Below, piece after piece: positions 6,616 through 63,671 of a stretch of 64,000 nt of DNA. Below the pieces are notes generated by a model that saw nothing but the letters and a program-made list of their open reading frames with translations, was not told the origin of the DNA and made no database searches. Position numbers and translations under genes: made by a program. The stretch is from a virus. Within the stretch, counting starts at the first letter, position 1. The number at the start of each line of letters is the position of its first letter. The stretch is taken from positions 1 through 64,000 of the IMG/VR virus record IMGVR_UViG_3300044712_002337, one strand, 5' to 3'.

Positions 6616-6650
6616 CCGTGCGGCGTCGCCGCACATTTTAAAAGGGTGAA
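6616..6650 (+). repeat. hairpin-TTTTAAAA element 1
   Basis: A 17-nt hairpin (6616-6632) is followed by ATTTTAAAAGGGTGAAAT (6633-6650). It lies between two leftward genes and reads against their transcription. Confidence 0.8.
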
Positions 6651-6653
6651 ATG

Positions 6654-7454
6654 TCAGGCGGCCGGCTCGCCCCCCGCGGCCCCCCCGTCGTCGGCGAACG
6701 GGAACACCTCGTCCTCCTCCGCCCCCAGACGCTTGCCGTCCGGCCCGACGCGGAACCCGTCCTCGTCGACGGGGTGGAGGTCGACGTCCACCAGCCGCTT
6801 GGTGGCCGGGTCGATGAGCCGCAACTGGTCGTCGCAGTACCCGTTCTCCAGCAGGAACTTGTTCTCCGGCCGGTCCCGCACCTCCTGCCTGCGGTCGTAC
6901 CCCTTAAAGACCGTCAGAACCGCATCGAACGCCGGCCCGAACACCGGGTCGTCCTCGCGGGTCAGGAGGTCGTCGACGGACGCGTACACCGGCTTGTTGT
7001 CGGCGGTGCGGACGCACCGGGTCATGACGAAGTGGAACTCGGCGTCGTTCGCCTGGGCCTCGACCGTGTTGGCGTACAGGTCGTTGGTGTCGGCGGCCAG
7101 CTCGAACAGGCGGGCGCGGGCCGCCCGCATGGCGACGGCGGTCGCCCGGGCCTGCAGCCGGGTCGTCCCCCTCACCTTGCCGGCCAGCACCCGCGCCCCG
7201 TCGGCCAGTTGCGTCCGCAGGGCCTCGGCCTCCGCCTCCCGGCCGTCGTCCCACAGCCCGAGCGCCCGGGCCGCCTGGTCCACCTGCCGGTTCAGCAGGG
7301 CCTTCCTCTCCTTGGCCAGCAGGAACAGGCGGACGTACGCCGCGCTCTTCTCGACGTCCGCGTCCCGCAGGTCCTTCCGCGTCGGGGCGACGGCGACGTA
7401 CCTCTTCCCGCCGGCCTCGAACTCCACCTTCTTCGCCGTCTTCGGGTCCGCCAT
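6654..7454 (-). CDS. unknown tail-module protein, candidate tail assembly chaperone
   Basis: 266 residues, acidic and charged, starting MADPKTAKKVEFEAGGKRY and ending in an Ala/Gly/Glu-rich tail. No catalytic motif is seen. It lies directly upstream of the tape measure gene and downstream of the tail tube, where siphoviruses encode tail assembly chaperones; the role is inferred from position only. The ATG at 7454 is preceded by the box ATTTTAAAAGGGAAAATTC of a sense-oriented hairpin-TTTTAAAA element, which supplies the ribosome-binding site. No slippery heptamer joining it to a neighbouring frame was noticed. Confidence 0.8.
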   Translation of the reverse strand: MADPKTAKKVEFEAGGKRYVAVAPTRKDLRDADVEKSAAYVRLFLLAKERKALLNRQVDQAARALGLWDDGREAEAEALRTQLADGARVLAGKVRGTTRLQARATAVAMRAARARLFELAADTNDLYANTVEAQANDAEFHFVMTRCVRTADNKPVYASVDDLLTREDDPVFGPAFDAVLTVFKGYDRRQEVRDRPENKFLLENGYCDDQLRLIDPATKRLVDVDLHPVDEDGFRVGPDGKRLGAEEDEVFPFADDGGAAGGEPAA

Positions 7455-7456
7455 GA

Positions 7457-7493
7457 ATTTTCCCTTTTAAAATGGTTCGGGGCGGGCCGCCCC
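7457..7493 (-). promoter_or_regulatory. hairpin-TTTTAAAA element 2, sense
   Basis: Read leftward: a hairpin of GGGGCGG arms (7479-7493), then ATTTTAAAAGGGAAAAT (7457-7473), ending three bases before an ATG. The box provides the AAAAGGGA Shine-Dalgarno. Confidence 0.8.
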
Positions 7494-7503
7494 TACCCCC
7501 CTT

Positions 7504-8607
7504 TTACCCGACCCGGACCCCGCGCCGGGCCGCCTTCTGGTCGGGGGCGTCCATCTCGTCCAGGGTGCCGGCCCGGTCGACGGCCGCCAGCCGGGCGGCC
7601 ACCGCGTCCCGGGCGAACCCGTCGTTCAGGTCGTACACCCCGTCGACGAACGCCGCCCGCTCGGCCTCGGTGAGCGGCGGGCGGTCGGGCAGCGACCCGT
7701 CCGGCTCGAACACGAACACCTGCTGGGCGGCCTTGATTTTCTCGTTGTCGGTCACCGCCTCCCGCCTCCGCCCCCGGTCCCCGTCGCCCGCCCGGCGGGC
7801 CAGCAGGTACCCGTCGAACGCGTCGTCGTCGGCGGCGGCCGCCTCCCCCGGGCCGTCCGGGTCCTGGGCGGCGGCGTCGTACGCCCGGGTCCAGTTGGCC
7901 AGCGCCCGCTGGTCGTCGGACAGGGCGGCGGCGGGCACCGGGAACACCGCCCCGCCGCACGCCTCCCGGGCGGCGTGGGCCGACCGCCACGGGTCGGTGC
8001 GGGCCAGCTCCCGCACCTGGGCGGCCGACGGGCGGGCGGCCAGGTAGGCGGCCACGGCGGCGTCCAGCAGGCCGGTGCGGTCCCGCCGCCAGTCGGCCCA
8101 CGCCGGGGCGCCGTCCGCCCGGCGGAGGCCGCGGCCGACGGCCGCCCGCACCCGGGCGGCGGCGGCGTGGTGGTCGGCGGTGTGGGCGTACAGGGCGTGC
8201 TTGCGGGCGTGCAGGGCGGCCGCCCGGGCCTTGGCGGCGGCCAGCTCGGCCCGGAACGGGGCCACCCGGTCGGCCCGGTGGAAGTGTTTGTACACCAGCT
8301 GCTTGAGGCGGTCGACGGCCGCCTCGGCGTCGGCCAGGGCGGCGTCGTCCCCCTTGTCCCAGTGGTCGCCGGCGGCGACCGCGGCGTAGGAGGCGGCCTT
8401 CGGCGGGCGGAGCAGGTCGACGGCCGCCTCGGCCGTCGGCAGCCCGCGGCGGACGGCCCGGCGGTAGGCGGCGGCGGCGGCCTCGGCGGCGGCCGCCCGG
8501 CCGGCGGCGTCCGGCTCGGCCACCAGGTACGCCCGGCCCCCGACCCGGATGCGGGTGAGCCCGGCCAGCAGGCGGGCCAGCAGCAGTTCGCGCTCGTCCG
8601 GGCGGAT
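7504..8607 (-). CDS. unknown tail-module protein, start codon undetermined
   Basis: About 367 residues, Ala/Arg-rich and largely helical (for example KQLVYKHFHRADRV), ending DQKAARRGVRVG. It sits between the tail tube and the tape-measure block, so it is probably a tail assembly protein. The frame has no ATG, GTG or TTG near its coding beginning; 8607 is an ATC and CTG codons follow at 8586 and 8583. The frame stays open upstream through the tail-tube gene in the -1 phase, so expression by frameshift or from a non-standard start are both possible. A GTG at 8620 opens a different frame whose product (Pro/Gly/Arg-rich) looks like a shadow. Confidence 0.65.
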   Translation of the reverse strand: MRPDERELLLARLLAGLTRIRVGGRAYLVAEPDAAGRAAAAEAAAAAYRRAVRRGLPTAEAAVDLLRPPKAASYAAVAAGDHWDKGDDAALADAEAAVDRLKQLVYKHFHRADRVAPFRAELAAAKARAAALHARKHALYAHTADHHAAAARVRAAVGRGLRRADGAPAWADWRRDRTGLLDAAVAAYLAARPSAAQVRELARTDPWRSAHAAREACGGAVFPVPAAALSDDQRALANWTRAYDAAAQDPDGPGEAAAADDDAFDGYLLARRAGDGDRGRRREAVTDNEKIKAAQQVFVFEPDGSLPDRPPLTEAERAAFVDGVYDLNDGFARDAVAARLAAVDRAGTLDEMDAPDQKAARRGVRVG

Positions 8608-8626
8608 GGCCGTCCCCCACTGGCGG

Positions 8627-8657
8627 AAAAAGCGGGGGAGGGGTCTCCCCCTCCCCC
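8627..8657 (-). terminator. strong intrinsic terminator after tail tube gene
   Basis: Read leftward: a perfect 10-bp stem (GGGGGAGGGG against CCCCTCCCCC, loop GAGA) followed by GC and five T. It lies 22 bases past the tail-tube stop codon. Confidence 0.85.
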
Positions 8658-8678
8658 TCCTACCGCGGGCCGGGCCCG

Positions 8679-9780: not shown

Positions 9781-10665
9781 CTAGGCGTCCTGCCCCTGAA
9801 TCGTCAGAATCACGCTCACCCACCCCACCCCGCCGTGGGCGCCGTGCGCCGGCGAGCGGGCGTCGGCCACCCGCAGCCCCCGCCACGGGTGCTGGGCGCA
9901 CAGCTGCTCGAAGTGGAGGGCGGCGGGGGCGAGGGAGCCGTCGGCGGCGTACGGCGGCGGGGCGGTGCGGTAGTTGAACGCCGGCAGCGGGCGGTCCTTC
10001 TCGCGGACCAGGGCGTCGTGCAGCCAGGCCAGCTCGGCCGGGTCGTCGGCCAGGCACAGGAGCTCGAACCGCTGGGTGACGAGCAGGGCGGTGCCCCCCT
10101 GCTCGTACGGGTCGGCGGCGAACTGGTAGAGCGGGCGGACGGCCACCGCCGGGTACTGCAGGCGGCGGTCGGGGGGGACGCTCAGGTCGCCGCCCGGGCC
10201 GCCCGCCCGCGGGTCGGCGGCCGGGGCGAGCGAGTCGGCGTCCAGGCGGACCGCCCACGGGGCGGCCGAGTCCCCCACCTGCACCCCGCGGAACGTGTGC
10301 CGGGCGCGGACGGCGGCGGCGGCCGGCAGGGGGGCGTCGAAAATCACCCGCCCGTTCTCCCAGTCGACGGCGAACCCGGCGGCGACCGGCACGCCGTCCA
10401 CCGTCACCGCCACCGCGGCCGGCGGGTCGGGCAGGTCGCCCTCCCACACCCACCCCTTCCGCCGCCCCTCGTACACCCGCCCGTCGGCGTACCGCCGGTC
10501 GGCCGCCCGGCGGAGGACGGCCAGGTCGTCGCCCAGTTCGGCGGTGCGGTGCCACCCGGCCCGCAGGCAGGCCCGGCGGACCCGCTCGGCCAGGTTGACC
10601 TCCACCCCGCGGGTGAACCCGGGGGTGCCCACCCGGGGGGCGTTGCGGAAGCTGAACTCGGACAC
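9781..10665 (-). CDS. unknown phage structural protein (tail or neck)
   Basis: 294 residues beginning MSEFSFRNAPRVGTPGFTRG; mixed alpha/beta, no catalytic motif. A segment with WENGRVIFDAPLPAAAAV resembles beta-hairpin phage structural proteins that describe an imposed coordinate, but the family was not identified. It lies between the tail-completion-like gene and the tail tube. The GTG at 10665 follows the box of a sense-oriented hairpin-TTTTAAAA element. Confidence 0.75.
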   Translation of the reverse strand: MSEFSFRNAPRVGTPGFTRGVEVNLAERVRRACLRAGWHRTAELGDDLAVLRRAADRRYADGRVYEGRRKGWVWEGDLPDPPAAVAVTVDGVPVAAGFAVDWENGRVIFDAPLPAAAAVRARHTFRGVQVGDSAAPWAVRLDADSLAPAADPRAGGPGGDLSVPPDRRLQYPAVAVRPLYQFAADPYEQGGTALLVTQRFELLCLADDPAELAWLHDALVREKDRPLPAFNYRTAPPPYAADGSLAPAALHFEQLCAQHPWRGLRVADARSPAHGAHGGVGWVSVILTIQGQDA

Positions 10666-14320: not shown

Positions 14321-14357
14321 CCGCCGGGCGGGGCCGGCGGATTTTAAAAGGGTGAGG
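14321..14357 (+). repeat. hairpin-TTTTAAAA element 5a, inverted
   Basis: Perfect 7-bp stem CCGCCGG/CCGGCGG (14321-14340), then ATTTTAAAAGGGTGAGG (14341-14357). It abuts element 5b head to head. Confidence 0.8.
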
Positions 14358-14390
14358 TCAACCTTTTAACATGCGGGCTAGTACACCCGC
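14358..14390 (-). repeat. hairpin-TTTTAAAA element 5b, sense
   Basis: Read leftward: hairpin GCGGG/CCCGC (14373-14390), then ATGTTAAAAGGTTGA (14358-14372). Together with 5a it forms a back-to-back pair, the only one in the window. Confidence 0.75.
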
Positions 14391-14878
14391 ACCGGGGTGA
14401 CCACCGCCCGCCCGCCGCCCCCGCCGGGGTCGCGCGGGCCGCCCGGGCGGCGGTCCCGCAGGTAGGCGGCGAGCATGGCCTTGTACGCGGCGCACGCCCC
14501 CAGCCGGAGCACGCTCTCCCGCGCCTTCCACGTGTCCTTCAGGTCGATGCGGTCGCCGCCGGTGCTGCCGATGGCGATGGCCTGGCCGGCCCCCTTCACC
14601 GCCGCCCCCTGGTTGGCCAGGCAGGCGGCGTGGGCGGTCGCCAGGGTGACGAACTCCGGGTCGGGGGTGGCCGGGGCGGTCGGGTCGGGGGTGACGGTGG
14701 CGTCGGCCACCGACAGGGCGTACGCCCGGGCCAGCCCGACGGCGGCGGTGTCGAACACCACCCGCCGGGCGGCGGCCACCCACAGGGTCTCCAGCTGGGC
14801 GTCGGTGTACTTCGGGCTCGCCCCGTCGTCCCCCAGCAGGGCGCGGAGCTCGGGAATCACCTCGTCGAACAGGGCCAC
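14378..14878 (-). CDS. head-tail connector-like protein
   Basis: 166 residues. The N-terminus MALFDEVIPELRALLGDDGA and the helical body (LETLWVAAARRVVFDTAAVG, ATAHAACLANQGAAVKGAG) match the style of phage gp6-like connectors, which are all-helical and often have this size. The C-terminus is Gly/Arg-rich and ends in the hairpin of the next element. GTG start at 14878. Family assignment is tentative. Confidence 0.65.
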   Translation of the reverse strand: MALFDEVIPELRALLGDDGASPKYTDAQLETLWVAAARRVVFDTAAVGLARAYALSVADATVTPDPTAPATPDPEFVTLATAHAACLANQGAAVKGAGQAIAIGSTGGDRIDLKDTWKARESVLRLGACAAYKAMLAAYLRDRRPGGPRDPGGGGGRAVVTPVRVY

Positions 14879-26292: not shown

Positions 26293-27282
26293 TTACGCCT
26301 GGCCGAGGAGCAGGTGCCGCTCGTCCAGCGCCCCCACCCCCCACTTGGCCCGCCCGTACCACCCCTTCTTGTCCTCCTTGTGGAGGGTGGGGTCCTCGTG
26401 GATTTCGATGTTCATGCCCACCGGCATGACCACCTTGTCCTTGTGCCGGGTGTCCACCCCGACCACCAGGTTGGTCTTCGAGTTGGTGAACGTCCCGCCC
26501 AGGGTGTCGTCCCAGTACTTCTGGTACACCCCGTCCGGCCCGAGCTCGTCGATGTCCACGTACTCCACCTTGGCGAACCCGAGAATCTTGCCGTCCTCGG
26601 CGTCCAGGATGTCGGTGCGGTACATGTCCCCGATGTCGGTGGCGGCCAGGTACAGGATGGTCTCCCGCAGCTCCGGGCTCATGTACAGCCGGTTCATCCG
26701 GTACCCCCGCTTGGAGGTGTACTTCTGCCCGGCCCGCCGCATCTTCGTCTGCATCTGCCCCTGCAGCTTGAGGGAGAAGGTGCCGGCGGTGGCGGCGGTG
26801 TCGACCACCAGGAACCCGCGGTCGTGGGCGGTCTTGAGCACCAGGTGGAACACGTCGTCGTTCATCGACATCTGCCACCCGGCGGCCATCCCGTCCAGGG
26901 CCCGGGCGATGACGTCGAAGTCCCCCCGGCGGACGCTCTCCAGCGGCACCCCGATGGTGTTCCCCCGCATGCTCATGGGGATGCGGAGGTTGTCGCTCTC
27001 CACCATCCGCTGCGGGATGTCCCCGATGCGGGGGATGTAGAACGCCTTGAACTCCCCCATGTCCTTGTTCCAGAACAGGTCCTTGGGGTAGTACACGTCG
27101 GCGAACTCGTCCGTCGGGCGGACGGTGGCCAGCTCGCCGAACAGGGCGTCCTGGAAAATCTGCTCCTTCACGTACCCGCCGACGGCCTCGGCCACGGCCG
27201 GCTCGGCCGCCGCCGCCACGGCCAGGTCGGCCGACGCGCTGTCCTTGAGCAGGGCGATGAACTCTTCGGGTTTCTCGAACAC
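26293..27282 (-). CDS. major capsid protein
   Basis: 329 residues. HK97-fold hallmarks can be read: an N-terminal helical arm, then strands and an E-loop (MRGNTIGVPLESVRRGDFD), a P-domain helix with DDVFHLVLKTAHDRGFLVVD, and a C-terminal region with VVMPVGMNIEIHEDPTLH. It lies downstream of the protease/scaffold gene and the decoration-like gene, the canonical position. GTG start at 27282, 70 bases after a sense-oriented hairpin-TTTTAAAA element. No obvious protease-cleaved delta domain is visible. Confidence 0.85.
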   Translation of the reverse strand: MFEKPEEFIALLKDSASADLAVAAAAEPAVAEAVGGYVKEQIFQDALFGELATVRPTDEFADVYYPKDLFWNKDMGEFKAFYIPRIGDIPQRMVESDNLRIPMSMRGNTIGVPLESVRRGDFDVIARALDGMAAGWQMSMNDDVFHLVLKTAHDRGFLVVDTAATAGTFSLKLQGQMQTKMRRAGQKYTSKRGYRMNRLYMSPELRETILYLAATDIGDMYRTDILDAEDGKILGFAKVEYVDIDELGPDGVYQKYWDDTLGGTFTNSKTNLVVGVDTRHKDKVVMPVGMNIEIHEDPTLHKEDKKGWYGRAKWGVGALDERHLLLGQA

Positions 27283-27904: not shown

Positions 27905-29374
27905 TTACTTCTTGGTGCGGGTGGAGGGTTGGGCGGCGGCGGCCTTCTGCTTGCGGGCGTAGGCCAGGATGCTGTCGCGGGCGGCCTGGCCGCGGGTCGG
28001 CTTGGGGGCCTCGGCGGCGGCCGGCGGGGGCGGCGGGGCGGGCGGGTCGACCGGTTCGAGGGCGGCCAGGGCCGGGGGGTCGGCCGGCTTCGCCGGCGGC
28101 TCGGCGGGCGGGGCCGGCTTGGCCCCGGCGACGGCCGCCAGGTTCTTCTCCACCAGGTCGTCGGTCAGGGCGGCCAGGGTGAGGGCGATGGCCCCGGCCT
28201 TGTCCGCGTCCACCCCGTAGGCGGCGGCCACCTTGGCGGTGAGGGCGGCCAGCCGCCGCTCCTGGGCGACGGCGTCCAGGTCGGCCTGGGCCCGGGCCAG
28301 GTCGGCCCGGGCCTTGTCCAGCTCCGCCTGGAGCTCGTCCCGCTTGCCGGCCAGGGCGGCGGTGGCCGCCTGCTCGGCCGCCAGCCGGGCGGTCGCCTCG
28401 GCCAGCTGTCGGGCGGTCGCCTCGCCGTCGGCCTTGGCCTGGGCCAGGTCGGCCTCGGCCGCGCCGGCCGTCTTGTGGGCGGCGGCCAGCTCGGCCTTCA
28501 GCTTGTCCAGTTGTTCGTCCATTGCGGTTCCCGTGGGGGGTTCTGGGGGCGTGTACCCCGCCGCCGGCGGCGGGGCGTCGAGGGCGGCGGAAATTTTTCC
28601 GGAAAGTTGCTTCCCGTCGAACGAGTAGACGGCCGACTTCGGGTTGGCCGGGACGGGCACGAACCCCTTGCCGGCGAAGGTGATTTGCCGGAGCACCTGC
28701 CCCAGCCGCTTGCCCTTGTACGTGTTCGTCGCCCGCGGGTTGTACCGGCTCAGGTGGGCGGACAGGAACGCCGTGTCCTTCGTCCGCCGGACGAACTCCA
28801 CCTGTGCCAGGTCGACGTCCGTCCACTCCGCCCCGGCCGGGGCGAGGGCGTAGTCGAAGTCGTCGTGCAGGGCCTCCATGCTCGCCCACCAGGCGCCCTG
28901 CTCCAGCTCCTCGATGAACGTCGCCATTTCTTCCGTCGCCGCCTTGTCCTTGCCGACGCGGTACAGGACGGTGGTGTCGAACAGGTGGAACGAGTCGGGC
29001 AGGTCGGCCGCGGCGGTGTCGAGGGGCAGGTCCGACCCGTCGGCGGCGGCCGCCCGCACGGCGGTGGCGTGGCCGACGATGTCCGCCCGGTCGTGCCGGC
29101 GGTTGGCCGGCTTGTCCACCGGGGTGAACCGGGCGGCCCACGTGTCGGCCGCCGGGAAGAAGTGGCCGTTGCGGTTGAACCCGGTGCTCACCAGCAGGGT
29201 CTGGCAGTAGTACAGGTCCTTCTGGTTCAGGTTGGTGGCGAGGGCGAGGCCGCCCTCGCCCGGAAGACCCGGGGCGGGCAGCGGCCGCACCTCGCACACG
29301 GCGTCCACCCGGGCCGCCGCCAGGGCCGGGCCGAGGCCGGCTTCCAACTCCGCCGGGAACGGCGTGATGCCCAT
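27905..29374 (-). CDS. prohead protease fused to scaffold-like coiled coil
   Basis: 489 residues. The N-terminal 200 residues look like a phage prohead protease: LVSTGFNRNGHFFPAAD, then a histidine in DIVGHATAVRAA and a conserved-type segment around VEFVRRTKDTAFLSAHL. From residue about 284 (MDEQLDKLKAELAAAH) a long Ala/Lys/Glu-rich coiled coil runs to a Pro-rich linker and a basic tail, as in scaffolds. The in-frame ATG at 28522 could start a separate scaffold, as in lambda C/Nu3, although no strong ribosome site precedes it. ATG at 29374. Confidence 0.8.
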   Translation of the reverse strand: MGITPFPAELEAGLGPALAAARVDAVCEVRPLPAPGLPGEGGLALATNLNQKDLYYCQTLLVSTGFNRNGHFFPAADTWAARFTPVDKPANRRHDRADIVGHATAVRAAAADGSDLPLDTAAADLPDSFHLFDTTVLYRVGKDKAATEEMATFIEELEQGAWWASMEALHDDFDYALAPAGAEWTDVDLAQVEFVRRTKDTAFLSAHLSRYNPRATNTYKGKRLGQVLRQITFAGKGFVPVPANPKSAVYSFDGKQLSGKISAALDAPPPAAGYTPPEPPTGTAMDEQLDKLKAELAAAHKTAGAAEADLAQAKADGEATARQLAEATARLAAEQAATAALAGKRDELQAELDKARADLARAQADLDAVAQERRLAALTAKVAAAYGVDADKAGAIALTLAALTDDLVEKNLAAVAGAKPAPPAEPPAKPADPPALAALEPVDPPAPPPPPAAAEAPKPTRGQAARDSILAYARKQKAAAAQPSTRTKK

Positions 29375-29691: not shown

Positions 29692-31806
29692 TCAGTCCTC
29701 TACCCCGCCGGCCCGGGCGGCGGCCAGCAGGGCGAGGCGGCCGGCCCGGTCCTGGGCGAGGGGCAGGCCGGCCAGGGCGGCGCGGGCGGCCCGCAGGTCG
29801 TCGGGCAGGGCCAGGTCCCCCTCCAGGGCGGCGAGCACGTCCGCCTCCCCCGCCCCGGCCGGCAGGCGGGCGAGCACGGCGAAGTGCAGGTCCTCGTACT
29901 CCGCCACCTGGGCGGTCGACAGCTGGCGGAAGGTGGCCTTGCCCAGGGCCCCCAGGTACAGCGGCTTGAGCACCTCGTCGGCCACCTCGGACGCGGCGGC
30001 CAGGGCGGCGGCCGCCCGGCCGAACGGGACCACCTTGCGGGGCCTCCGCTTCACCTTGTCGGTCGAGCCCGGCGGGCGGCCGGTCCGCTCCGGCGGCTTG
30101 TACGCCGCGGGGTCTTTCGTCCCCCGCTTCTTCCGGTTCCGCCGCTTCGGGTCGGCCGGGTCGGCCGGGTCCGGCTGCAGGGCGGCGGCGTGCTCGGCCG
30201 GGGTCTTCTCGCCCGCCTTCGGCGGCGGGTAGTCCAGGCCCACCTGGGACGGGGTGAGGTGCCCCTGGCCGACGAACGCCCGCTCGTTCATCACGTCCCG
30301 CTGGTACTCCAGGGCGAACGGCCCGGCCTTGGGCGGGGCGGCCCCCCGCTCCCGCGCCGCCCGCTCGCGGCGGAGGCGGACCTGCTCGATTTCCGGCACC
30401 GCCCCGAACCGCTCCTGCAGGAACTCCAGGCTCAGCCCCTCCCGGTCCATGAGCTCGATGAGCAGCCGCTTGAGCTGGGCGTCCTCGCCCAGCGGGGAGC
30501 CGTCGAACACGACGGTGAACGGGTGGCGGAACCCGAGCGGCTGGCGGACGCCGAGGTCGAGTTCGGCCTCCCAGAACCCCTTCAGGACGTCCCGCACGTA
30601 CTGCAGCCGCTCGACCAGGCTCTGCATGGACACGGCGTTGTTGGTGAACCCGGCCTGCCCGCTCGACGTCCCGCCGGTGAGCGTCGGCGGCACCCCGTAC
30701 CCCTGGAAGATGGCCTCCAGGGTGGGCACGTACTTCTCCTTGCCGAGGAAGTGGTGCACGTCGGTGGTGATTTCCTTGCAGTCGATGAACGGGTCCCAGA
30801 TGATGTCCAGGGTGCCGCCGTTGACCGACTGGGTGACCAGGTCGTTCAGCCGGGCCATCATCTCGCGGGTCGGGTAGATGATGTTCTCCGGGTCGTCGGC
30901 GTCCTTGCCGAGCGTCCAGATGCGGGTGCGGGTGACCGCCCCGTCGGCCGCCATCTCGTCGGCCAGCTTGAGCTTGCCCAGGGTGCGGAGGTCGCGGAGC
31001 ACCGAGTAGGTGATGGGCACGGGCACCGCCTGGTGGTCGGCCCGCTTGTAGAACAACAGGACGTTGTCCTTGGCCGTCAGGCGGACGGCGTCCCCGGCCG
31101 GGTCGACGGCCGCCCGCTGGGGGGCCGGGCGGAGCCACGCGAACAGGCGGCGGCCGGCGGCCGGCGGGCCGACGGCGTACCCGCTCAGGTCGGGCGTCTG
31201 GCCGGGGGCGAACTCGGCCGGCAGCCGCAGGGTGCGGGGGTCGAGCACGTCGTACCCGACCGGAATCTGCCCGGGCGGGAGCGGGCTCTTGACGACCGGG
31301 CGGACGGCCGCCGGCTTGAAGCCGTCCGGCAGTCTGGCCAGCCGCCGCTTGAGGGGCGCGGTGCCGGCCAGGTACAGCATGTGGGCGATCCGCTCGGACC
31401 GGTCGCGGGCGTTCACCCGCTTGAGCCACTCCCGCCCCACCTTCTGGGCCCGCACCCCGCGGTTGAGCACGTCCATCCCCTTGGCGGTGAAGTCGGCCAT
31501 CAGGTCGATGATGTTCCGCACCAGGGAGAACTTGTGGTACGCCTGGAAGCAGGCGTCGATGACGTGCACCGGGTCGGTGGGCAGGGCGGACTCGGGGCGG
31601 AACCAGTCGCGGTCGCCCTCGTCCAGCCCGTTGGTGACGGTGGTGTTCGGGTTGGCCGCCGGGAACAGGGGGGCGGCGGTGGCCGGGCGGGGGTCCGGGC
31701 GGCGGCGGCAGACGGCGTGCCCGTAGTCGGCGGCGCGGGCCAGGTCGGGCGGGGTGCGGGTGTACAGGGGGGTGGTCACGCTGGAGTCCGACTGGAGTGG
31801 GGTCAC
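29692..31806 (-). CDS. portal protein
   Basis: 704 residues. It starts with a GTG that overlaps the terminase stop (GTGA). Central motifs include FTAKGMDVLNRGV, RIWTLGKDADDPENIIYPTR, GGTSSGQAGFTNNAVSMQSL and the helix with RLQYVRDVLKGFWEAEL, typical of large dodecameric portals. The C-terminal 200 residues are basic and Ala-rich, with a possible unfolded segment around residue 535. It sits directly after the large terminase, as expected for the packaging-motor partner. Confidence 0.8.
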   Translation of the reverse strand: MTPLQSDSSVTTPLYTRTPPDLARAADYGHAVCRRRPDPRPATAAPLFPAANPNTTVTNGLDEGDRDWFRPESALPTDPVHVIDACFQAYHKFSLVRNIIDLMADFTAKGMDVLNRGVRAQKVGREWLKRVNARDRSERIAHMLYLAGTAPLKRRLARLPDGFKPAAVRPVVKSPLPPGQIPVGYDVLDPRTLRLPAEFAPGQTPDLSGYAVGPPAAGRRLFAWLRPAPQRAAVDPAGDAVRLTAKDNVLLFYKRADHQAVPVPITYSVLRDLRTLGKLKLADEMAADGAVTRTRIWTLGKDADDPENIIYPTREMMARLNDLVTQSVNGGTLDIIWDPFIDCKEITTDVHHFLGKEKYVPTLEAIFQGYGVPPTLTGGTSSGQAGFTNNAVSMQSLVERLQYVRDVLKGFWEAELDLGVRQPLGFRHPFTVVFDGSPLGEDAQLKRLLIELMDREGLSLEFLQERFGAVPEIEQVRLRRERAARERGAAPPKAGPFALEYQRDVMNERAFVGQGHLTPSQVGLDYPPPKAGEKTPAEHAAALQPDPADPADPKRRNRKKRGTKDPAAYKPPERTGRPPGSTDKVKRRPRKVVPFGRAAAALAAASEVADEVLKPLYLGALGKATFRQLSTAQVAEYEDLHFAVLARLPAGAGEADVLAALEGDLALPDDLRAARAALAGLPLAQDRAGRLALLAAARAGGVED

Positions 31807-36696: not shown

Positions 36697-36704
36697 CACG
36701 GGCG

Positions 36705-36738
36705 GGGGAGACCCCCACATTATTTTAAAAGGTGAAAA
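36705..36738 (+). promoter_or_regulatory. hairpin-TTTTAAAA element 13, sense
   Basis: Hairpin GGGGG-AGA-CCCCC (36705-36717), then ATTATTTTAAAAGGTGAAAA up to the ATG at 36739. The AAAAGGTGA part is the ribosome site. Confidence 0.8.
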
Positions 36739-40908: not shown

Positions 40909-41292
40909 ATGACCACCTACGAAGCCGAGGAAGAAATCCGCGAGGGGCCCGCCCCGGGCGAAGAGGAGGCCTTCTGGGCGGCCATCGAGGCCCGCCCGGA
41001 GGACCACCTCCCCCGCCTGGTGTTCGCCGACTGGCTGGACGAGCGCGGCCGCCAGGGCGAGGCCACGGCCTGGCGGGAAACGGTCGGATTCGCCCCGCGT
41101 CGGTTTTACACGCTCAACGTCGTGGCCTGGCACGACGCCTCCGTCTTCACGAACGGCGCACCCGACGACCTGCCTCGGCGGGTGTTCCGGCGCATCGTCA
41201 AAGACCCGAAAAACAAGCAGACCGCCGTGTACTTCGACTCCTTCCGCGAGGCGATGGAGGCTCTGTTCGACGTCTGGCGGGAAGAAGGCTGA
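40909..41292 (+). CDS. protein with planctomycete repeat-companion-like domain
   Basis: 127 residues. Residues about 25-50 hold the repeat-companion-like signature AFWAAIEARPEDHLPRLVFA then DWLDERGRQGEA, the pattern of the TIGR02996 family described mainly from Gemmata-type planctomycetes. The C-terminus is different (VYFDSFREAMEALFDVWREE). ATG at 40909 with an AGGAC site. It points to host origin of this gene. Role unknown. Confidence 0.8.
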   Translation: MTTYEAEEEIREGPAPGEEEAFWAAIEARPEDHLPRLVFADWLDERGRQGEATAWRETVGFAPRRFYTLNVVAWHDASVFTNGAPDDLPRRVFRRIVKDPKNKQTAVYFDSFREAMEALFDVWREEG

Positions 41293-41394: not shown

Positions 41395-41430
41395 GATTTC
41401 CCCCTTTTAACATCGCGGGCGCAGCCCGCG
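41395..41430 (-). repeat. hairpin-TTTTAAAA element 16, inverted
   Basis: GATTTCCCCCTTTTAACAT then hairpin CGCGGGC-GCA-GCCCGCG (41414-41430). It reads against the rightward gene at 41439, which has its own GGAGG. Confidence 0.8.
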
Positions 41431-41662: not shown

Positions 41663-41773
41663 ATGTTGGGCAAAATCGTCGTCTACCGGAACAAGCCCGC
41701 CCTGGTGGTCGCCACCTTCGCCTCGGGCGCCCTGCTCGTCGAGGTCGAGGGGCGGCCCGTCCTCATCCCGTGA
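41663..41773 (+). CDS. 36-residue micro-ORF
   Basis: MLGKIVVYRNKPALVVATFA plus a short acidic end; beta-strand-like. Start follows a strong ribosome site. Could be a small SH3-like domain. Function unknown. Confidence 0.55.
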   Translation: MLGKIVVYRNKPALVVATFASGALLVEVEGRPVLIP

Positions 41774-43574: not shown

Positions 43575-43666
43575 TGGGGTGCTCTCATGTTAACACAAAA
43601 ATTGTAGTACAACCCACCGACGACCACAAACGACTGACCTACAGGGTCGAAGTCTCCATCCCCTAG
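43535..43666 (+). CDS. small lipoprotein, possible outer spanin
   Basis: 43 residues, overlapping the end of the previous gene in another frame; GGAGGAGAAGG ribosome site. Signal peptide MRHGLVALVGVCLMGC with lipobox LMGC, mature part only 29 residues (SHVNTKIVVQPTDDHK). Size and lipobox fit an Rz1-type spanin, but no partner is visible. Confidence 0.65.
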   Translation: MRHGLVALVGVCLMGCSHVNTKIVVQPTDDHKRLTYRVEVSIP

Positions 43667-43698
43667 GGGCCTTCGGCCCAATTTTAAAAAGGTGAAAA
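43667..43698 (+). promoter_or_regulatory. hairpin-TTTTAAAA element 18, sense
   Basis: Hairpin GGGCC-TTC-GGCCC (43667-43679), then ATTTTAAAAAGGTGAAAA five bases before an ATG. Clear ribosome site. Confidence 0.8.
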
Positions 43699-43702: not shown

Positions 43703-44113
43703 ATGGAACTGAGAAGCCTGGGATTCGCCGAAGGAATGGCCCGCGGGCTGATGGGCGGGTTTCCGCCCAGTGACACGCCCAAGATGTTCGACTGGGACAA
43801 GGCCGCCCAAATCCTGGCCGAGCGGAGACCCGAGAGCGCGGCCGCCGGGTTAGCCGAGGACTGGGGTTGTACCGGCGGCGTCATCTGGGACGACGGAAAG
43901 CCGCAGAAGGACAGCTCGGCCTATCTGTCGTCCGTATGGGCCACCCCCGTCCTCGTGATTGGTGACGAGGTCATCCCGTGCTGGAAGAGGTTCGACAACC
44001 ACGGACACGCCGGCGAACACTGGCCGCCGTCCGCCCTGGCCTTGGTCGAAGGGGGCGACCCCACTCCTCTCGTCGTCGAGAACCCGTCTTACCCGCGAGG
44101 GAACCGGGCATGA
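43703..44113 (+). CDS. unknown 136-residue protein
   Basis: MELRSLGFAEGMARGLMGGF; middle with EDWGCTGGVIWDDGKPQKDS. ATG after element 18. Its stop overlaps the next start. Function unknown. Confidence 0.8.
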   Translation: MELRSLGFAEGMARGLMGGFPPSDTPKMFDWDKAAQILAERRPESAAAGLAEDWGCTGGVIWDDGKPQKDSSAYLSSVWATPVLVIGDEVIPCWKRFDNHGHAGEHWPPSALALVEGGDPTPLVVENPSYPRGNRA

Positions 44114-45100: not shown

Positions 45101-45367
45101 GTGCACACGACTGTCGTCTCCCCCACCCGCCCCGAGGCCCGCGCCGCCCCCCGGGTCGCCCTGGGCGACGTCCTCCGGGCCGACCTGCGGGCGCGGTGGG
45201 CGGCCGCCGTCGGGCGGGGCGAGCGGGAGGCCGTCCGCCGCTGGCTGCGGGTGGCCGACGCCTGGGCGGCGGTCGGCGCCCCGGGGTTCCCGCTGGTGCG
45301 GCTGGCCGCCCGCCTGGCCGACCTCGCTCTGATTCCGGTCCGGGCGTATCGCCAGGTCGGCGGGTAG
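45101..45367 (+). CDS. unknown 88-residue helical protein
   Basis: GTG start, MHTTVVSPTRPEARAAPRVA then DLRARWAAAVGRGEREAVRR. Arg/Ala-rich helices. Immediately upstream of TnpB element 1. Function unknown. Confidence 0.75.
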   Translation: MHTTVVSPTRPEARAAPRVALGDVLRADLRARWAAAVGRGEREAVRRWLRVADAWAAVGAPGFPLVRLAARLADLALIPVRAYRQVGG

Positions 45368-47348: not shown

Positions 47349-47729
47349 GTGACCGAAGACCAACGCCAGGAGTTTCTCGCGCTGGCGAGAAAAGGGTTCG
47401 AGACGGTGCCGCCCAAGCCGGGCCAGTGGGTGTCCCGGCGGCCGGGGCACAAGGACATCATCGGGTGCTGCGGGGTGGGCGCCGCCGCCGTCGCCAAGTT
47501 CGGCGGCGAGCCGGGCGACCCGGCGGTGGCGGTCAAGTCCCTCGGCCTGCCGGAGGACTACACCTGGGGCGTGCAACTCGGGTTCGACATGCCGAACAAC
47601 AAACCGCCCGACGACCTGAACTTCGACGAGGACGCGTACGCCCTGGCCCGGCTGGGGCACGCCGACGGGGTGATGCTCCGCCGGGAGGCGGAGGAGAAAT
47701 GGAGTGGGAAGAAACCCCCGCAGTTTTAA
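47349..47729 (+). CDS. unknown protein of the C-x-(V/I)-G family
   Basis: 126 residues from GTG, strong GAGAGGAG site. TEDQRQEFLALARKGFETVP then DIIGCCGVGAAAVAKFGG and FDMPNNKPPDDLNFDEDAYA. Related to 43185 and 48831 by the CGxGAA motif and the following hydrophobic/acidic helix. The end overlaps a degenerate A/T box. Function unknown. Confidence 0.75.
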   Translation: MTEDQRQEFLALARKGFETVPPKPGQWVSRRPGHKDIIGCCGVGAAAVAKFGGEPGDPAVAVKSLGLPEDYTWGVQLGFDMPNNKPPDDLNFDEDAYALARLGHADGVMLRREAEEKWSGKKPPQF

Positions 47730-48830: not shown

Positions 48831-49223
48831 ATGGGAAAAGTAGAGTGCGTGTTCGACGGCCCGCAGGCGTACTACGACGAGCTGGTGCGGGCCAGCCGGG
48901 CGGGCGAGTTCCCGGCCACCGACGGGTTCTCCTGCGCGTACCTGACCCCCGACGGCCGCCGGTGCGGCATCGGCAAGCTGTGGCCGCGTCGCACGTGCGA
49001 GACGGCCGAGGCGCAGGGGTGGGGGGCCGTGTCTTACTGGAAAGACGAGGCCGCGTCCGACCGGCTGCCCGCGTGGCTCCCGGTCGCGGACGCGGTCCGC
49101 ATCCAGAACGCACACGACGACCAGTTCGACGGCGACCTCCCCACCTGGGACCACGAACAGTTCGTTCGGAGTTTGAACGACATCCCCGTGTTCGCGGGCT
49201 GCGCCCGCATGTTAAAAGGGTAA
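48831..49223 (+). CDS. unknown protein of the C-x-(V/I)-G family
   Basis: 130 residues from ATG after GAGCGGAGCGAAC. GRRCGIGKLWPRRTCETAEA and WLPVADAVRIQNAHDDQFDG. The last five residues RMLKG are encoded by the box of the next hairpin-TTTTAAAA element. Related to 43185 and 47349. An upstream in-frame GTG at 48816 is an alternative start. Confidence 0.75.
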   Translation: MGKVECVFDGPQAYYDELVRASRAGEFPATDGFSCAYLTPDGRRCGIGKLWPRRTCETAEAQGWGAVSYWKDEAASDRLPAWLPVADAVRIQNAHDDQFDGDLPTWDHEQFVRSLNDIPVFAGCARMLKG

Positions 49224-49227
49224 AACC
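49194..49227 (+). promoter_or_regulatory. hairpin-TTTTAAAA element 22, sense
   Basis: Hairpin GCGGGC-TGC-GCCCGC (49194-49208), then ATGTTAAAAGGGTAAAACC to the ATG at 49228. Confidence 0.8.
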
Positions 49228-49641
49228 ATGTCCGCGACGAAGACCCAGGCGGACCGGTTCGCCCGCAAGGCCCGCGCCGTCGCCACCCTGGCCGACGTGG
49301 TGGCCGGGGACTACTTCCCGGCCCAGAAGAATGAGTGGCTCGCCGCCGGCCGGTCCTTCCTGGCCGACGTCCGCGCCCGCCTCGGGGGCGACGGCGAGGT
49401 GCGGGTGTGCCGGGGCGGCCCGGCCGTGCCCGGGGAGATTGTCTTACACACGGACAAGTTATACATCATACTCTGCGCCGGCCCGCTCGGCCCGGCGTCC
49501 GGGCTGATGTACCGGACCTGTCAGGGGCGGAAAGACTATACGGGCGGCCCCAACCGGTATTACTCGTACCGCGCCCTGGCCGACGACCCGGACGGGTTCG
49601 TGGGGGTGCTGCGGGCTCTGCAAGAAAAGGGGGCGATGTGA
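49228..49641 (+). CDS. unknown 137-residue protein
   Basis: MSATKTQADRFARKARAVAT; IVLHTDKLYIILCAG is a strand segment; ends LRALQEKGAM. Start after element 22. Function unknown. Confidence 0.8.
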   Translation: MSATKTQADRFARKARAVATLADVVAGDYFPAQKNEWLAAGRSFLADVRARLGGDGEVRVCRGGPAVPGEIVLHTDKLYIILCAGPLGPASGLMYRTCQGRKDYTGGPNRYYSYRALADDPDGFVGVLRALQEKGAM

Positions 49642-49856
49642 ACAGCTCGGTCGACAGAAAAATCCACAAACTCCTGATGAACGAACGGGATGGTCCGCAC
49701 GGGGAGAGCGAGCGGAGGTACGCCGCCGAGTGGGCTCTGGATCACCTGGACAACACGGAATGTGAAGACGACCCGATGCCGGTCGAGGACGCCCTGGACT
49801 ACCTGGCGGAAGCGGTGACGGACTTGGCGGGGCGTATCCGAGCCCTTCGCGACTGA
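49638..49856 (+). CDS. small acidic helical protein
   Basis: 72 residues, GTG in GTGA overlap. NSSVDRKIHKLLMNERDGP and DDPMPVEDALDYLAEAVTDL. Function unknown. Confidence 0.75.
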   Translation: MNSSVDRKIHKLLMNERDGPHGESERRYAAEWALDHLDNTECEDDPMPVEDALDYLAEAVTDLAGRIRALRD

Positions 49857-51578: not shown

Positions 51579-51614
51579 GGGCGAGCCGAAGGCCCGCATT
51601 TTAAAAGGAGAAAG
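51579..51614 (+). promoter_or_regulatory. hairpin-TTTTAAAA element 25, sense
   Basis: Weak hairpin, then ATTTTAAAAGGAGAAAG (51598-51614) seven bases before an ATG. Strong AAGGAG. Confidence 0.7.
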
Positions 51615-51620
51615 TCATCT

Positions 51621-51896
51621 ATGGACGACGTGAGCGTGACGGAGTGCGAGGCGGCCGTCGAGGGCCCGGGCAAGTTCGAGGGGGAGCGGCCCTGGGTGTA
51701 TTACTACTGGGCGCTCGCGATGGAGGGCGGGGCGGACGAGGAGTACGAGGACCGGCTGATTTTCGACGTGAAGCCGGAAGACGTGGCCCTGTTCGAGGAG
51801 CTGTCCGTGTACTCCCGGGTGGTCATCCGGGAGACGGGCGACGGGTTCGTGCGGGGGTACGGGTGGATTCCGGCCGAGCGGATAACGGAGGAGTGA
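51621..51896 (+). CDS. unknown 91-residue acidic protein
   Basis: MDDVSVTECEAAVEGPGKFE; WVYYYWALAMEGGADEEYED; then VVIRETGDGFVRGYGWIPAE. Function unknown. Confidence 0.8.
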   Translation: MDDVSVTECEAAVEGPGKFEGERPWVYYYWALAMEGGADEEYEDRLIFDVKPEDVALFEELSVYSRVVIRETGDGFVRGYGWIPAERITEE

Positions 51897-55506: not shown

Positions 55507-55665
55507 ATGCCCCTGTGGTGCGCCCTGTCCGACGCCGAGCTGTTCGCCGAGTACGAGTTCTGGCTGGCCAGCGACAACCCCCACGCCGGCCGCGTCCTGG
55601 CCAACCTGGACCTGGAGCGGCAGCGGCGGGTGGACGAGTGGTTCGGCTCCGCCCCCCACGAGTAA
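55507..55665 (+). CDS. small unknown protein
   Basis: 52 residues: MPLWCALSDAELFAEYEFWL then VLANLDLERQRRVDEWFGSA; helical. Function unknown. Confidence 0.65.
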   Translation: MPLWCALSDAELFAEYEFWLASDNPHAGRVLANLDLERQRRVDEWFGSAPHE

Positions 55666-58156: not shown

Positions 58157-59440
58157 TAGAGTATAATCCATCCTATAATTGTAATTATGCACCGCTCCCA
58201 GCGATTCCTGCTTAAACCCTCACAAGCTCAAGCTCGGCTATTAGCCGGGGCCGCCGGCCTATCGCGTTTCGCTTGGAACTGGGCGGTCGCCCTGTGCCAG
58301 CGACACTACGAGTGGTACGGGAAGTTGCCCGGGTACAAGCGGTTGACCGCGTACTCGCTCGGGAAGCGATGGAACACGGTCAAGGACCGGCACTTCCCCT
58401 GGGTGCGCGAGTACAGCAAATACATCCCTGAGGAGAGCTTCAGGAAAGTGGACTTGGCCTACCGGGCCGCCTTCGCACGCCTGAGGAGAGGGCAGCCGGC
58501 GGGCTTTCCTAAGTTTCACAAGAAAGGGGTGAATGAGTCTTTTCAGGTGGTACCCTCCAGCCATTTCCCCCTCACCCTCAACAGGAACAAGTTCCGCATT
58601 CCGCGGGTCGGATTCGTCCGGACGGAGACGACCGTGCGGTGGCCAGAGGGAAAACAAGTGTACGGCCGGGTGAAGAAGCGAGCAGGCAGGTGGTGGCTCA
58701 TCCTGAGCCACCACCTGCCGGACCCGCCGAAGCTCCCGGAGGGGCGGCCGGCGTGCGGGGTGGACGTGGGGTGCACCACCTTCGCGACCGTCGCGAGCGA
58801 GGGGGTGGTCGAGGAGGTGGCCCCGCCCAAACCGTACGCGAAAGCCCGGCGGCGGCTGCGGCGGGCCCACCGGCGGGTGAGCCGGAAGGTGAAGGGGTCG
58901 GCCAACCGGAAGAAGGCGGTCCTCCGCCTGGCCAAGGCGCACGAGCGGGTGGCCAACATACGGGATAACTTCCTGCACCAGTTGACCAGCCGACTGGTCA
59001 AGAGGTTCGGGGTCATCGTATTAGAAGACCTGTCCGTGAAGGGGCTGGCCGGCGGAATGTTGGCCAAGACCGTTCACGACATGGGCTGGGGCGAGTTCCG
59101 CCGCCAGGTGGAGTACAAGGCGGAAACGGTCGGCACGAAGGTTGTCTTCGCCGACCGTTTTTACCCATCTTCGAAAACCTGTTCGGCCTGCGGTCAAGTG
59201 AAAGCCAAGCTTGGACTGAGCGAACGGGAGTGGACGTGTATGGGCTGCGGCACCTCGCACGACCGCGACCACAATGCCGCCAAAAACCTTGAAAAACTAG
59301 GGCGGGACACGCCCGAAGTTACGCCTGCGGAGAGTGGAGGTTCAGGCTCGTGCCGAAAGGTAAGGGTCGGTGCCACTCAGGGAAGCAGGAATATTCAGGA
59401 CGCGATTGATTCGTCAATCCCGCTTGAGTAAAGTCCGGAC
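58157..59440 (+). mobile_element. TnpB element 2 inserted in a small gene
   Basis: 1284 bases. Left flank ends GACGGAC, right flank starts TACCAGCGG; the halves join into one open frame without leftover bases. Left end holds TAGAGTATAATCC, a promoter-like TATAAT; right end ends AAAGTCCGGAC. The shared GGAC-TA at both ends leaves the exact cut ambiguous by a few bases. No TnpA, no target duplication seen, in line with the IS200/IS605 type. Confidence 0.75.
58187..59431 (+). CDS. tnpB: TnpB RNA-guided nuclease (IS605 OrfB)
   Basis: 414 residues from ATG. OrfB N-terminus: LLAGAAGLSRFAWNWAVALC. RuvC motifs: D in GVDVGCTTFAT, E in VIVLEDLSVKG and D in DRDHNAAKNLEKL; zinc ribbon CSACGQVKAKLGL ... 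CMGCG. Similar to TnpB 1 throughout but clearly diverged. Active-site residues appear intact. Confidence 0.9.
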   Translation: MHRSQRFLLKPSQAQARLLAGAAGLSRFAWNWAVALCQRHYEWYGKLPGYKRLTAYSLGKRWNTVKDRHFPWVREYSKYIPEESFRKVDLAYRAAFARLRRGQPAGFPKFHKKGVNESFQVVPSSHFPLTLNRNKFRIPRVGFVRTETTVRWPEGKQVYGRVKKRAGRWWLILSHHLPDPPKLPEGRPACGVDVGCTTFATVASEGVVEEVAPPKPYAKARRRLRRAHRRVSRKVKGSANRKKAVLRLAKAHERVANIRDNFLHQLTSRLVKRFGVIVLEDLSVKGLAGGMLAKTVHDMGWGEFRRQVEYKAETVGTKVVFADRFYPSSKTCSACGQVKAKLGLSEREWTCMGCGTSHDRDHNAAKNLEKLGRDTPEVTPAESGGSGSCRKVRVGATQGSRNIQDAIDSSIPLE

Positions 59441-61442: not shown

Positions 61443-61916
61443 ATGCCGACCATCACGATTGACATCGACGACGTCCGGAAGGCCGGGGGTGTACGGGAAG
61501 CCCTGGCGAAGAAGTGCGAGGGGTCCGACGCGGTGGCCTGCGGGGTCATCGGGATGGCGTTCGCCACCAGCGGGCCGGGCCACGGCTGGTCGCAGACGTT
61601 CGGGGCGGAGGACTTCGCCGCCCGCGCCCTGGACGAGGGTTGCGGGGCGCTCGCCTACCTGGACCTGGACGACGGGCGGGTGGCCGCCCTGGAGGACGGC
61701 GAAGTCGTCTGGACGGACGAGAGCGACGTGCGAATCGAGTGCCCGGGCGTCGAGGACGCTCTGGCCCACCCGGAGGTCGCGGCCGAGATGGCCCGGGCCG
61801 TGCGGGACTATCACCACCCGGAGAGCGACGTGGCGGAGTGGAAGAAGTTGGTGGTCGCCATCAAAGCGGCCGGCGAGGCGTTCGACCGGCTGGACCCCGA
61901 GCGGTTCGACGGCTAA
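61443..61916 (+). CDS. unknown 157-residue protein
   Basis: MPTITIDIDDVRKAGGVREA; helical C-terminus AIKAAGEAFDRLDPERFDG. Function unknown. Confidence 0.8.
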   Translation: MPTITIDIDDVRKAGGVREALAKKCEGSDAVACGVIGMAFATSGPGHGWSQTFGAEDFAARALDEGCGALAYLDLDDGRVAALEDGEVVWTDESDVRIECPGVEDALAHPEVAAEMARAVRDYHHPESDVAEWKKLVVAIKAAGEAFDRLDPERFDG

Positions 61917-62534: not shown

Positions 62535-62587
62535 GGCCGCCCGGTTCACCCGGGTGAACGGTTACCCCTCTCCACCACACGGGAGAC

Positions 62588-62866
62588 ATGATGGCCGCGA
62601 ACACCCAGACCCGCCGCGAAGCCGTCGAGATGGTGCTCTCCGTCCTCCGCGACGGCGCCCGCAACGACCGGTATTTGCGGCAGGCCGACGACGGGCACTA
62701 CTACACCACCCCGGACCACACGTTCCTCGGCGACGACGGTCCGTACAGCCCGCCGGGCGTCACCATCCCGGTCGCCTACGACACCCCCGAAGAGCAGGAA
62801 GAGGGGTGGGCCGAAGCTCTGCTCGACGAGTTGGACGAGAAGGTTGCCGGCGGGGGCGACGAGTGA
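62588..62866 (+). CDS. unknown 92-residue protein
   Basis: MMAANTQTRREAVEMVLSVL; YYTTPDHTFLGDDGPYSPPG; acidic end. GGGAGAC site. Function unknown. Confidence 0.75.
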   Translation: MMAANTQTRREAVEMVLSVLRDGARNDRYLRQADDGHYYTTPDHTFLGDDGPYSPPGVTIPVAYDTPEEQEEGWAEALLDELDEKVAGGGDE

Positions 62867-62897
62867 GACGCCGTCACCCCGGGGGTGATATCACCGA

Positions 62898-62924
62898 GAG
62901 GCCGCCCGGGTGGGCGGCCTCTTT
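62898..62924 (+). terminator. intrinsic terminator
   Basis: GAGGCCGCCC-GGGT-GGGCGGCCTC stem followed by TTTC. Confidence 0.75.
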
Positions 62925-62978
62925 CGTTTGGCGGGCCGAGCCCGCCGGACCAACTAACTTCCGAGCGGAGCGAACAAG

Positions 62979-63626
62979 ATGACGAAGTCCAAGCCTAAAA
63001 CCAGCCGGGACACGACCATCACCCTGGCCCTGGCGAACCCGTCCGAGCGGGCGACTCACCTGGAAGTCTCGGTGTCGTACGACAAGGGCGGCCCGAACTA
63101 CTTCTCGGGCTCGACCGTGGCCCGCGGCTACTATCTCAGCGTCGGCCCGGTGAAACTCGCCCGCGGGATGCGGAGATTCGAGATTATGTCCCACCGCGCG
63201 GTCCTGCTCGAAACCACCGGGCGGAGGTCGGACAAGCGGCTGGGCTGGCACTTCGAGCAGGCCAAAGCCTCCGTCACCGCCCAGTCCGGCCAGGCGTTCG
63301 AACTGCTGCAACGCTTCCGGGCGGCGGAGGCCGCCAAGGAGGGGGACCGGCGGCGGGTTTATCACGTCTGCTGGGACGCCCCTTTTATCAAAATCGACCA
63401 CTGTTGGTGCTCCGAGAGTGCTGTCGCACTCGCCAAAGTGGTGACCGCCGGCGGGGCCGACAAAGCGCCGCTTCTGGCCGACGCCCTGGAGGAGGCCGGG
63501 TGCGACTGCCCGCTGACGCTCGCAGAACTTCGGCGACCGGACGACGAGGTGGCACGTCGCGCCGGCGAGCCGGGCGTGGCCCTCGTGGTTGCCCGGCACG
63601 TGCTCAGTCATCAGGCGTCTTACTGA
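62979..63626 (+). CDS. unknown 215-residue phage protein
   Basis: ATG after GAGCGGAGCGAACAAG. TTITLALANPSERATHLEVS and YYLSVGPVKLARGMRRFEIM; a type common among phage proteins with no assigned function. Ends EPGVALVVARHVLSHQASY. Confidence 0.8.
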   Translation: MTKSKPKTSRDTTITLALANPSERATHLEVSVSYDKGGPNYFSGSTVARGYYLSVGPVKLARGMRRFEIMSHRAVLLETTGRRSDKRLGWHFEQAKASVTAQSGQAFELLQRFRAAEAAKEGDRRRVYHVCWDAPFIKIDHCWCSESAVALAKVVTAGGADKAPLLADALEEAGCDCPLTLAELRRPDDEVARRAGEPGVALVVARHVLSHQASY

Positions 63627-63633
63627 CGAAGTC

Positions 63634-63671
63634 TATTTCACCCTTTTAAAATCGCTGGGTTTCACCCCGCG
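63634..63671 (-). repeat. hairpin-TTTTAAAA element 31, inverted
   Basis: TATTTCACCCTTTTAAAAT then an imperfect CGC-GGG/CCC-GCG hairpin. Antisense to the next gene. Confidence 0.65.

Follow-up and report, generated by a model that had tools for sequence, protein, structure and literature searches.

What is the short hairpin-bearing element that recurs at gene boundaries in the IMG/VR virus record IMGVR_UViG_3300044712_002337, and how did its copies come to lie there? The stretch analyzed here (the window) covers positions 1–64,000 of this 176,391-base record; counts were also made over the whole record, on which a purpose-built codon-usage caller placed 254 genes. A first-pass annotation of the window had proposed a combined terminator, promoter and ribosome-binding module, with a mobile repetitive palindrome as the alternative. 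It is the alternative that turns out to be the better supported. The reading we favor, with about as much doubt as conviction, is that the elements form a REP-like repeat carried by the phage, some of whose copies have been co-opted as translation leaders.

A hairpin of free sequence beside a conserved tag

The window contains 16 occurrences of TTTTAAAA, for which 0.01 would be expected, and 17 of TTTTAAAAGGGTGAAAT with up to three mismatches allowed, again against 0.01. The strict core, T[TG]TTAA[AC]A[AG]G, is present 70 times in the 176-kb record where 0.14 would be expected, and comparison with ten Markov genomes gives 68 against 0.3. Together with matches to a covariance model (R1), these cores bring the record to ~82 elements, a family of ~70–80 copies. 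Strict cores number 24 in the window, and 18 of these carry a hairpin; with covariance-model matches included the count rises to 27–28 elements. The earlier figure of ~32 was thus of the right order and slightly high, and the coordinates it listed for the elements are right. Copies are classed as A where the core faces a gene start, A-far where it lies farther upstream, and B where it faces a stop codon; in the automatic table, A/B calls are uncertain where the distance runs to hundreds of bases. The elements of the window are as follows, with covariance-model scores in bits.

6618–6652, plus strand: B element, core facing the stop of gene 6654–7454 (minus); 49.8 bits; exact 17-mer
7456–7493, minus strand: A element, leader of gene 6654–7454 (minus), weak hairpin; 25.3 bits
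10670–10710, minus strand: A element, leader of gene 9781–10665 (minus), divergent core TGTTAAAAAAG; 21.1 bits
11379–11415, plus strand: B element; 31.8 bits
14324–14358, plus strand: B element, head to head with 14355–14411; 27.3 bits
14355–14411, minus strand: A-oriented partner of 14324–14358; 24.2 bits
19770–19805, plus strand: B element; 39 bits
29380–29414, minus strand: A element, leader of gene 27905–29374 (minus); 44.2 bits
29648–29683, plus strand: B element after the portal gene; 41.1 bits
34550–34584, plus strand: B element; 31.4 bits
36320–36350, minus strand: A element, leader of gene 36163–36309 (minus), 9-bp hairpin GGAGAACGG/CCGTTCTCC
36702–36739, plus strand: A element, leader of gene 36739–37128 (plus), without abutting hairpin; 24 bits
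39309–39341, minus strand: B-oriented element, long gap; 19.9 bits
40366–40387, plus strand: A-oriented core without hairpin, CACTATGTTAAAAGGG
41396–41430, minus strand: B element; 52.1 bits
41638–41659, plus strand: A element without hairpin, leader of gene 41663–41773 (plus)
43665–43698, plus strand: A element, leader of gene 43703–44113 (plus); 26 bits
45059–45094, plus strand: A element, leader of gene 45101–45367 (plus); 36.7 bits
47198–47232, minus strand: B-oriented element; 51.4 bits
47724–47740, plus strand: A-far core, overlapping the end of gene 47349–47729
49194–49226, plus strand: A element, leader of gene 49228–49641 (plus); 38.9 bits
49859–49893, minus strand: B element after gene 49638–49856 (plus); 49.6 bits; exact 17-mer
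51581–51615, plus strand: A element, leader of gene 51621–51896 (plus); 46.1 bits
54390–54426, plus strand: degenerate A-far element, downstream of a promoter-like motif at 54361 and followed by the Shine-Dalgarno leader GAGCGGAGCGA; 19.7 bits
55450–55483, plus strand: A-far element upstream of gene 55507–55665 (plus); 24.5 bits
61406–61440, plus strand: A element, leader of gene 61443–61916 (plus); 50 bits
63635–63669, minus strand: B element after gene 62979–63626 (plus); 30.6 bits; exact 17-mer

The per-column consensus, A-T[TG]TTAAAA-GG-N-N-R-AAA-[AT][TC], is identical in A, A-far and B copies, and the conserved unpaired tag can be written A-T[TG]TTAAAAGG-NN-R-AAA-[AT][TC]. The core, T[TG]TTAAAA, had been described as palindromic; it is not strictly so, as its second position is G in 36% of the A class and 31% of the B class. 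Nor does a GC hairpin precede every core. Usually of 7–8 bp with a 3-nt loop, it adjoins the 5' side of the core in about three quarters of copies, while some 12 copies are hairpinless and often have CTA or TTA directly before them. A hairpin score of at least 14 is reached on the core 5' side by 73% of cores, compared with 7–9% of control positions, and a score of at least 16 by 64%, compared with 4% of controls and 3% on the core 3' side. For the hairpinless copies, a perfect dyad operator of the form TTCAC-N2-TTTTAAAA-N2-GTGAA was considered and set aside, as few of them fit it.

Selection keeps the hairpin pairing. In a re-pairing test that is unbiased in being independent of selected hairpins, all seven pairs form in 35 of 70 cores; with 5' halves swapped between elements the mean is 3.3 and the maximum in 500 is 8. 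In an alignment of 23 hairpins, in which a few stems of 8 bp were shortened by a pair, pairing holds in 98.8% of stem cells against 59.8% after shuffling, and all seven stem pairs show double substitutions. Both the claim that structure is kept as sequence varies and the stem covariation proposed as its check are borne out. G.U occurs in only 1 of 161 stem cells of this alignment. When all stems are counted, G.U and A.C are both rare, to about the same degree whichever strand is read; the numbers are small, and nothing in them points to one RNA strand as the form under selection. Strictly Watson-Crick pairing without strand preference would suit a DNA hairpin no less than an RNA hairpin, a reading with weak support. 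Rfam gave no matches in the window to curated RNA families.

Copying between unrelated flanks

Copy pairs were aligned with 100–120 nt of their flanks. The best pairs have 43–57 nt in common at 91–96% identity and nothing alike outside, and since these segments lie between unrelated flanks, the unit is copied. The longest, 73938/81032, shares 57 nt at 95% identity, and the genes at these junctions are missing from the list of paralogues; 29667/74380 shares 49 nt at 96%. Two further pairs join a B to an A copy, namely 147770 (B)/95870 (A), with 46 nt at 91%, and 125159 (B)/45078 (A), with 43 nt at 93%. Nearest-neighbor partners barely split the classes (32 of 53 in the same class versus 26 by chance, P 0.1). 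Because B-A pairs are among the best and nearest neighbors hardly separate A from B, the two belong, as judged by alignment, to a single family whose unit is copied in either orientation.

We therefore envisage one short dispersed palindromic repeat, made of a GC hairpin of free sequence and a conserved unpaired tag. Its unit of ~43–57 bp spreads within the phage genome, in either orientation, into narrow intergenic gaps, as the copies with unrelated flanks show, and copying would probably proceed by recombination or by transposition machinery acting in trans. Where a copy lies at the right distance from a gene start, as 19 do, its AAAAGG(G/A) would serve as a Shine-Dalgarno sequence in an exposed AU-rich leader; a copy facing a stop codon would leave a 3' hairpin after the gene. 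A tyrosine recombinase of XerA/XerC-like type, encoded at 103104–104321 of the record, is a candidate for the spread of the repeat. Four TnpB-type RNA-guided nuclease genes are present (58325–59431 in the window; 88555–89649, 100035–101153 and 108992–110074 of the record), with no Y1 TnpA in the record. TnpB ends were rejected as the source of the repeat, no element being seen at TnpB 3' ends.

Position relative to genes and ribosome binding

Over the record, strict cores comprise 34 B, 29 A and 7 in-gene copies, an A:B ratio of ~1:1 rather than the ~19 sense and ~13 inverted copies first counted. Among A copies, 17 cores end 7–15 nt before the start codon; those at 29389 and 49210, called in-gene, behave like A leaders, which makes 19 copies in Shine-Dalgarno position. 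To this extent the ribosome-binding part of the module first proposed stands. Most B cores end 7–17 nt from the stop codon. Most copies are solo. Inverted dimers occur with the hairpins inside (102091–102168, 170012–170087) and with the cores inside (14342/14364, 117183/117219), there being no gene between the cores at 14342/14364. A symmetric two-hairpin unit as the ancestral form was rejected: just two copies are complete, and a second hairpin is found in 15 of 53 cases (28%) against ~15% in controls.

In silico, ribosome-binding sites are more often unpaired in A leaders than in other genes (0.60 versus 0.42). The hairpin contributes little to this exposure, which is 0.60 for natural, 0.57 for shuffled and 0.55 for deleted hairpins; with so small an effect, the hairpin was dropped as a ribosome-binding-site insulator. 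The tag cannot be kept just as a Shine-Dalgarno sequence, because it is equally conserved in A, A-far and B copies. A distinct Shine-Dalgarno leader, GAGCGGAGCGA, has 17 exact copies in the record (0.2 expected), 13–16 nt before starts and including 54443, 61937 and 62963 in the window; several A-far copies are followed by this separate leader. Matching of A and B cores within one cassette, as for end-to-end pairing of an mRNA, was also discarded, no co-variation being visible by eye.

Promoter-like sequences are separate from the elements. With up to two mismatches allowed, the motif GACTAYYTTAYAAAA is found at 16 sites, where none is expected; these are mostly intergenic and 15–100 nt before gene starts, and they include 47296 and 54361 in the window and 75666, 87086, 93416, 98014, 117164 (minus), 121780 (minus), 125895 (minus) and 150548 of the record. 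At 54361 and 93416 the motif lies upstream of an element, which is thus predicted to be inside the leader RNA. At 87086 and 125895 an ATG follows the motif by 15–17 nt, possibly marking leaderless genes. Promoter-like TTGAC-17-TATAAT sites are present as well, again apart from the elements.

Known repeats and related phages

REP-type repeats have been described from bacterial chromosomes, and their mode of spread is still debated. REP, BIME and REPIN are bacterial chromosome repeats for which inverted REP dimers are known (PMC3733652, PMC3116915). The phage element resembles them in its palindromes with stems of 5–13 bp, mostly short loops and compensatory stem changes; in its conserved unpaired tag at one end; in its extragenic location, tens of copies, two orientations and within-genome spread; and in occurring both solo and as inverted dimers. 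It differs in its tag, which is ~17 nt long (ATKTTAAAAGGNNRAAA..) and not GTAG or CGTC (found next to the hairpin in 0 of 51 and 1 of 51 cases, respectively), in that the Y1 transposase (RAYT, GTAG families) has no match in the phage record, and in being phage-borne, with some copies predicted to double as ribosome-binding sites.

In cluster K mycobacteriophages, SAS has the consensus GGGATAGGAGCCC and almost always points the same way; the inverted repeat of ESAS keeps its sequence from copy to copy, and the authors who described it find little support for an mRNA hairpin (PMC3203893). Like our element, SAS and ESAS are dispersed conserved sequences just before start codons, and about half of SAS have an upstream inverted repeat. 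In contrast, the stem of the phage element is free in sequence yet always paired, and half of its copies face stops. The SAS consensus has 2 matches in the window against 2.6 expected. The PeSL cassettes of T4, reportedly treated by Arbiol in 2010 and Comeau in 2014, are stem-loop cassettes at gene boundaries, linked to gene shuffling, that carry an early promoter (PMC4503421). The likeness is a stem-loop cassette at gene boundaries; the difference is the early promoter, since the phage element has none and the promoter-like motifs are separate.

Among viral contigs, the exact 17-mer gave five chance matches, all without a hairpin and four of them AT-rich, and the hairpin-plus-core pattern gave none; in 84,980 bacterial and archaeal genomes that pattern gave four single matches, which equals the chance expectation. 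A single-protein scan with TerL found one IMG/VR relative and an alignment scan 49 loci, with 27–43% TerL identity and GC of 34–47%. In the 17 larger TerL-relative records the covariance model found nothing better than E 0.01; the expected enrichment in related phages is therefore absent, the element occurring in none of these relatives. Three TerL relatives, L041, L050 and L069, each have 17–19 copies of a different 7-bp, 3-nt hairpin, GGCCGACNNNGTCGGYCTCG, nearly all in one orientation. In L041 (277–5620), each such hairpin lies between the end of the previous gene and the sigma-70-type promoter of an early gene. These arrays resemble our element in hairpin dimensions and in having about one copy per early gene boundary in terminase-related phages; they differ in their fixed stem, single orientation and unrelated sequence, and in sitting after a T-run terminator, just upstream of a TTGACA-17-TATAAT promoter. 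Boundary hairpin modules thus occur twice in this terminase-related group; homology between them is conjectural.

Alternative explanations

The main rival, which we consider possible and clearly less probable than a REP-like repeat, is an mRNA-boundary module. Here A would be a 5' leader (hairpin, AU-rich enhancer and Shine-Dalgarno) and B a 3' trailer hairpin. That such a module sets the mRNA processing or stability of units of one to several genes, and that genes shuffle around it by homologous recombination as around T4 PeSL cassettes, we hold to be similarly tentative. The A cores at 7–15 nt from starts, the B cores mostly at 7–17 nt from stops, the more open A leaders and the promoter-like motif just upstream at 54361 and 93416, which would put the element in leader RNA, all speak for it. 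On the other side, the same tag is conserved in A and B, though B as RNA is the reverse complement of A; G.U is not tolerated on the transcribed strand; and the hairpin adds little exposure in silico.

Several observations weigh against a spreading repeat. B cores sit tightly at stop codons, unlike random insertions, and A and B copies alternate between 36 and 103 kb, a further point for the boundary module: by shuffling, there is no BB (P ~3e-4) and there are 28 switches (P ~5e-5). In neither of the two minus-strand regions do A and B alternate in this way. Most of the copying is old, as the stems of most copies have diverged. PF01797, the hairpin-handling Y1 transposase, has no match in the record, although the same search was positive in control genomes, and the gene boundaries themselves depend on the purpose-built caller. 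The boundary module would better account for elements being locked to starts and stops and for A and B alternating locally, but it leaves unexplained why both strands have the same tag.

By analogy with integron integrases and attC, one can imagine the element as the joint of gene cassettes, an idea we think improbable. Early genes would be enclosed by copies pointing towards each other (hairpin-core > gene(s) < core-hairpin), 14342/14364 and 117183/117219 would be empty cassettes, and a hairpin-recognizing enzyme, perhaps the XerA/XerC-like recombinase at 103104–104321, would move cassettes or joints by recognizing structure and not sequence.

Neither a terminator nor a promoter role is supported, because canonical terminators and TATAAT-like promoters exist separately. 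As intrinsic terminators, which we find less plausible still, the hairpin and its TTTT would stop the transcript arriving from upstream or keep antisense transcription out. The GC hairpin is strong and T-rich sequence lies within 1 nt of it. Yet there are four T only, the second being G in about a third of these would-be U-tracts; element cores have T[TG]TTAAAA and never five or more T in a row; termination gives no reason for AAAAGG to be invariant; and B copies would face antisense. Some seven canonical terminators, hairpins with T5-6, lie elsewhere at gene ends (8631, 26239, 39053, 46827, 71786, 93400, 107844).

A promoter role ranks below even that. The element would be a hairpin promoter of the type used by the N4 virion RNA polymerase, whose promoters are likewise 7-bp, 3-nt-loop hairpins (PMC4496689), or a -10 box read by a phage sigma factor; two weak sigma-like proteins are at hand (98386–99195 of the record; 35520–36188, minus strand, in the window). 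In the former, sigma regions 2 and 4 seem to be followed by a C-terminal stretch that matches a phage family associated with HNH endonucleases. Against this, 7–15 nt separate the tag from the start codon, and no -35 is obvious by eye beside the cores in either reading direction; GACTAYYTTAYAAAA, twice upstream of an element, and the TTGAC-17-TATAAT sites look like the actual promoters; half of the copies would fire antisense; and no RNA polymerase was found among the proteins scanned. PF00940 (phage single-subunit RNA polymerase) had no match in the record, a search whose control likewise matched nowhere. A -10 box TAA[AC]AT on the opposite strand was considered and rejected, with no -35 enrichment by eye.

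Antitermination is hardly credible: read in the sense direction, B gives CCCTTTTAA[AC]A and then a hairpin, and CTTTTAACA resembles boxA with the same boxA-then-hairpin (boxB) order, but half of the elements are inversely oriented and the resemblance follows from reverse-complementing a Shine-Dalgarno-like tag.

The record and its probable host

Late genes occupy the minus strand at 1–36 kb of the record, and 36–103 kb is mostly taken up by small plus-strand genes. The late genes include the following.

31803–34055, minus strand: TerL
29692–31779, minus strand: portal
26293–27282, minus strand: capsid, weak match
1–6538, minus strand: tape measure

The tape-measure gene seemingly runs off both record ends in the same direction (1–6538 in the window; 174658–176391 of the record), for which reason the record is probably a nearly complete genome, circular or permuted. 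DNA polymerase III alpha is split between two genes (117255–119753 and 122158–124179 of the record), with an intein/HNH insert. Five TIGR02996 (Gemmata obscuriglobus repeat-companion) domains are encoded at 40960–41076 in the window and at 91122, 102203, 105521 and 106319 of the record, each N-terminal in a protein whose remainder differs from the others; because of them, the host is probably a Gemmata-like planctomycete.

Implications

With ~80 REP-like units in one phage, some near-identical and others diverged yet perfectly paired, the record offers a compact system for reading directly how such repeats spread, how they are oriented and how they are co-opted as ribosome-binding sites, and for testing this genetically. 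The phage repeat shows one way of keeping gene boundaries exchangeable.

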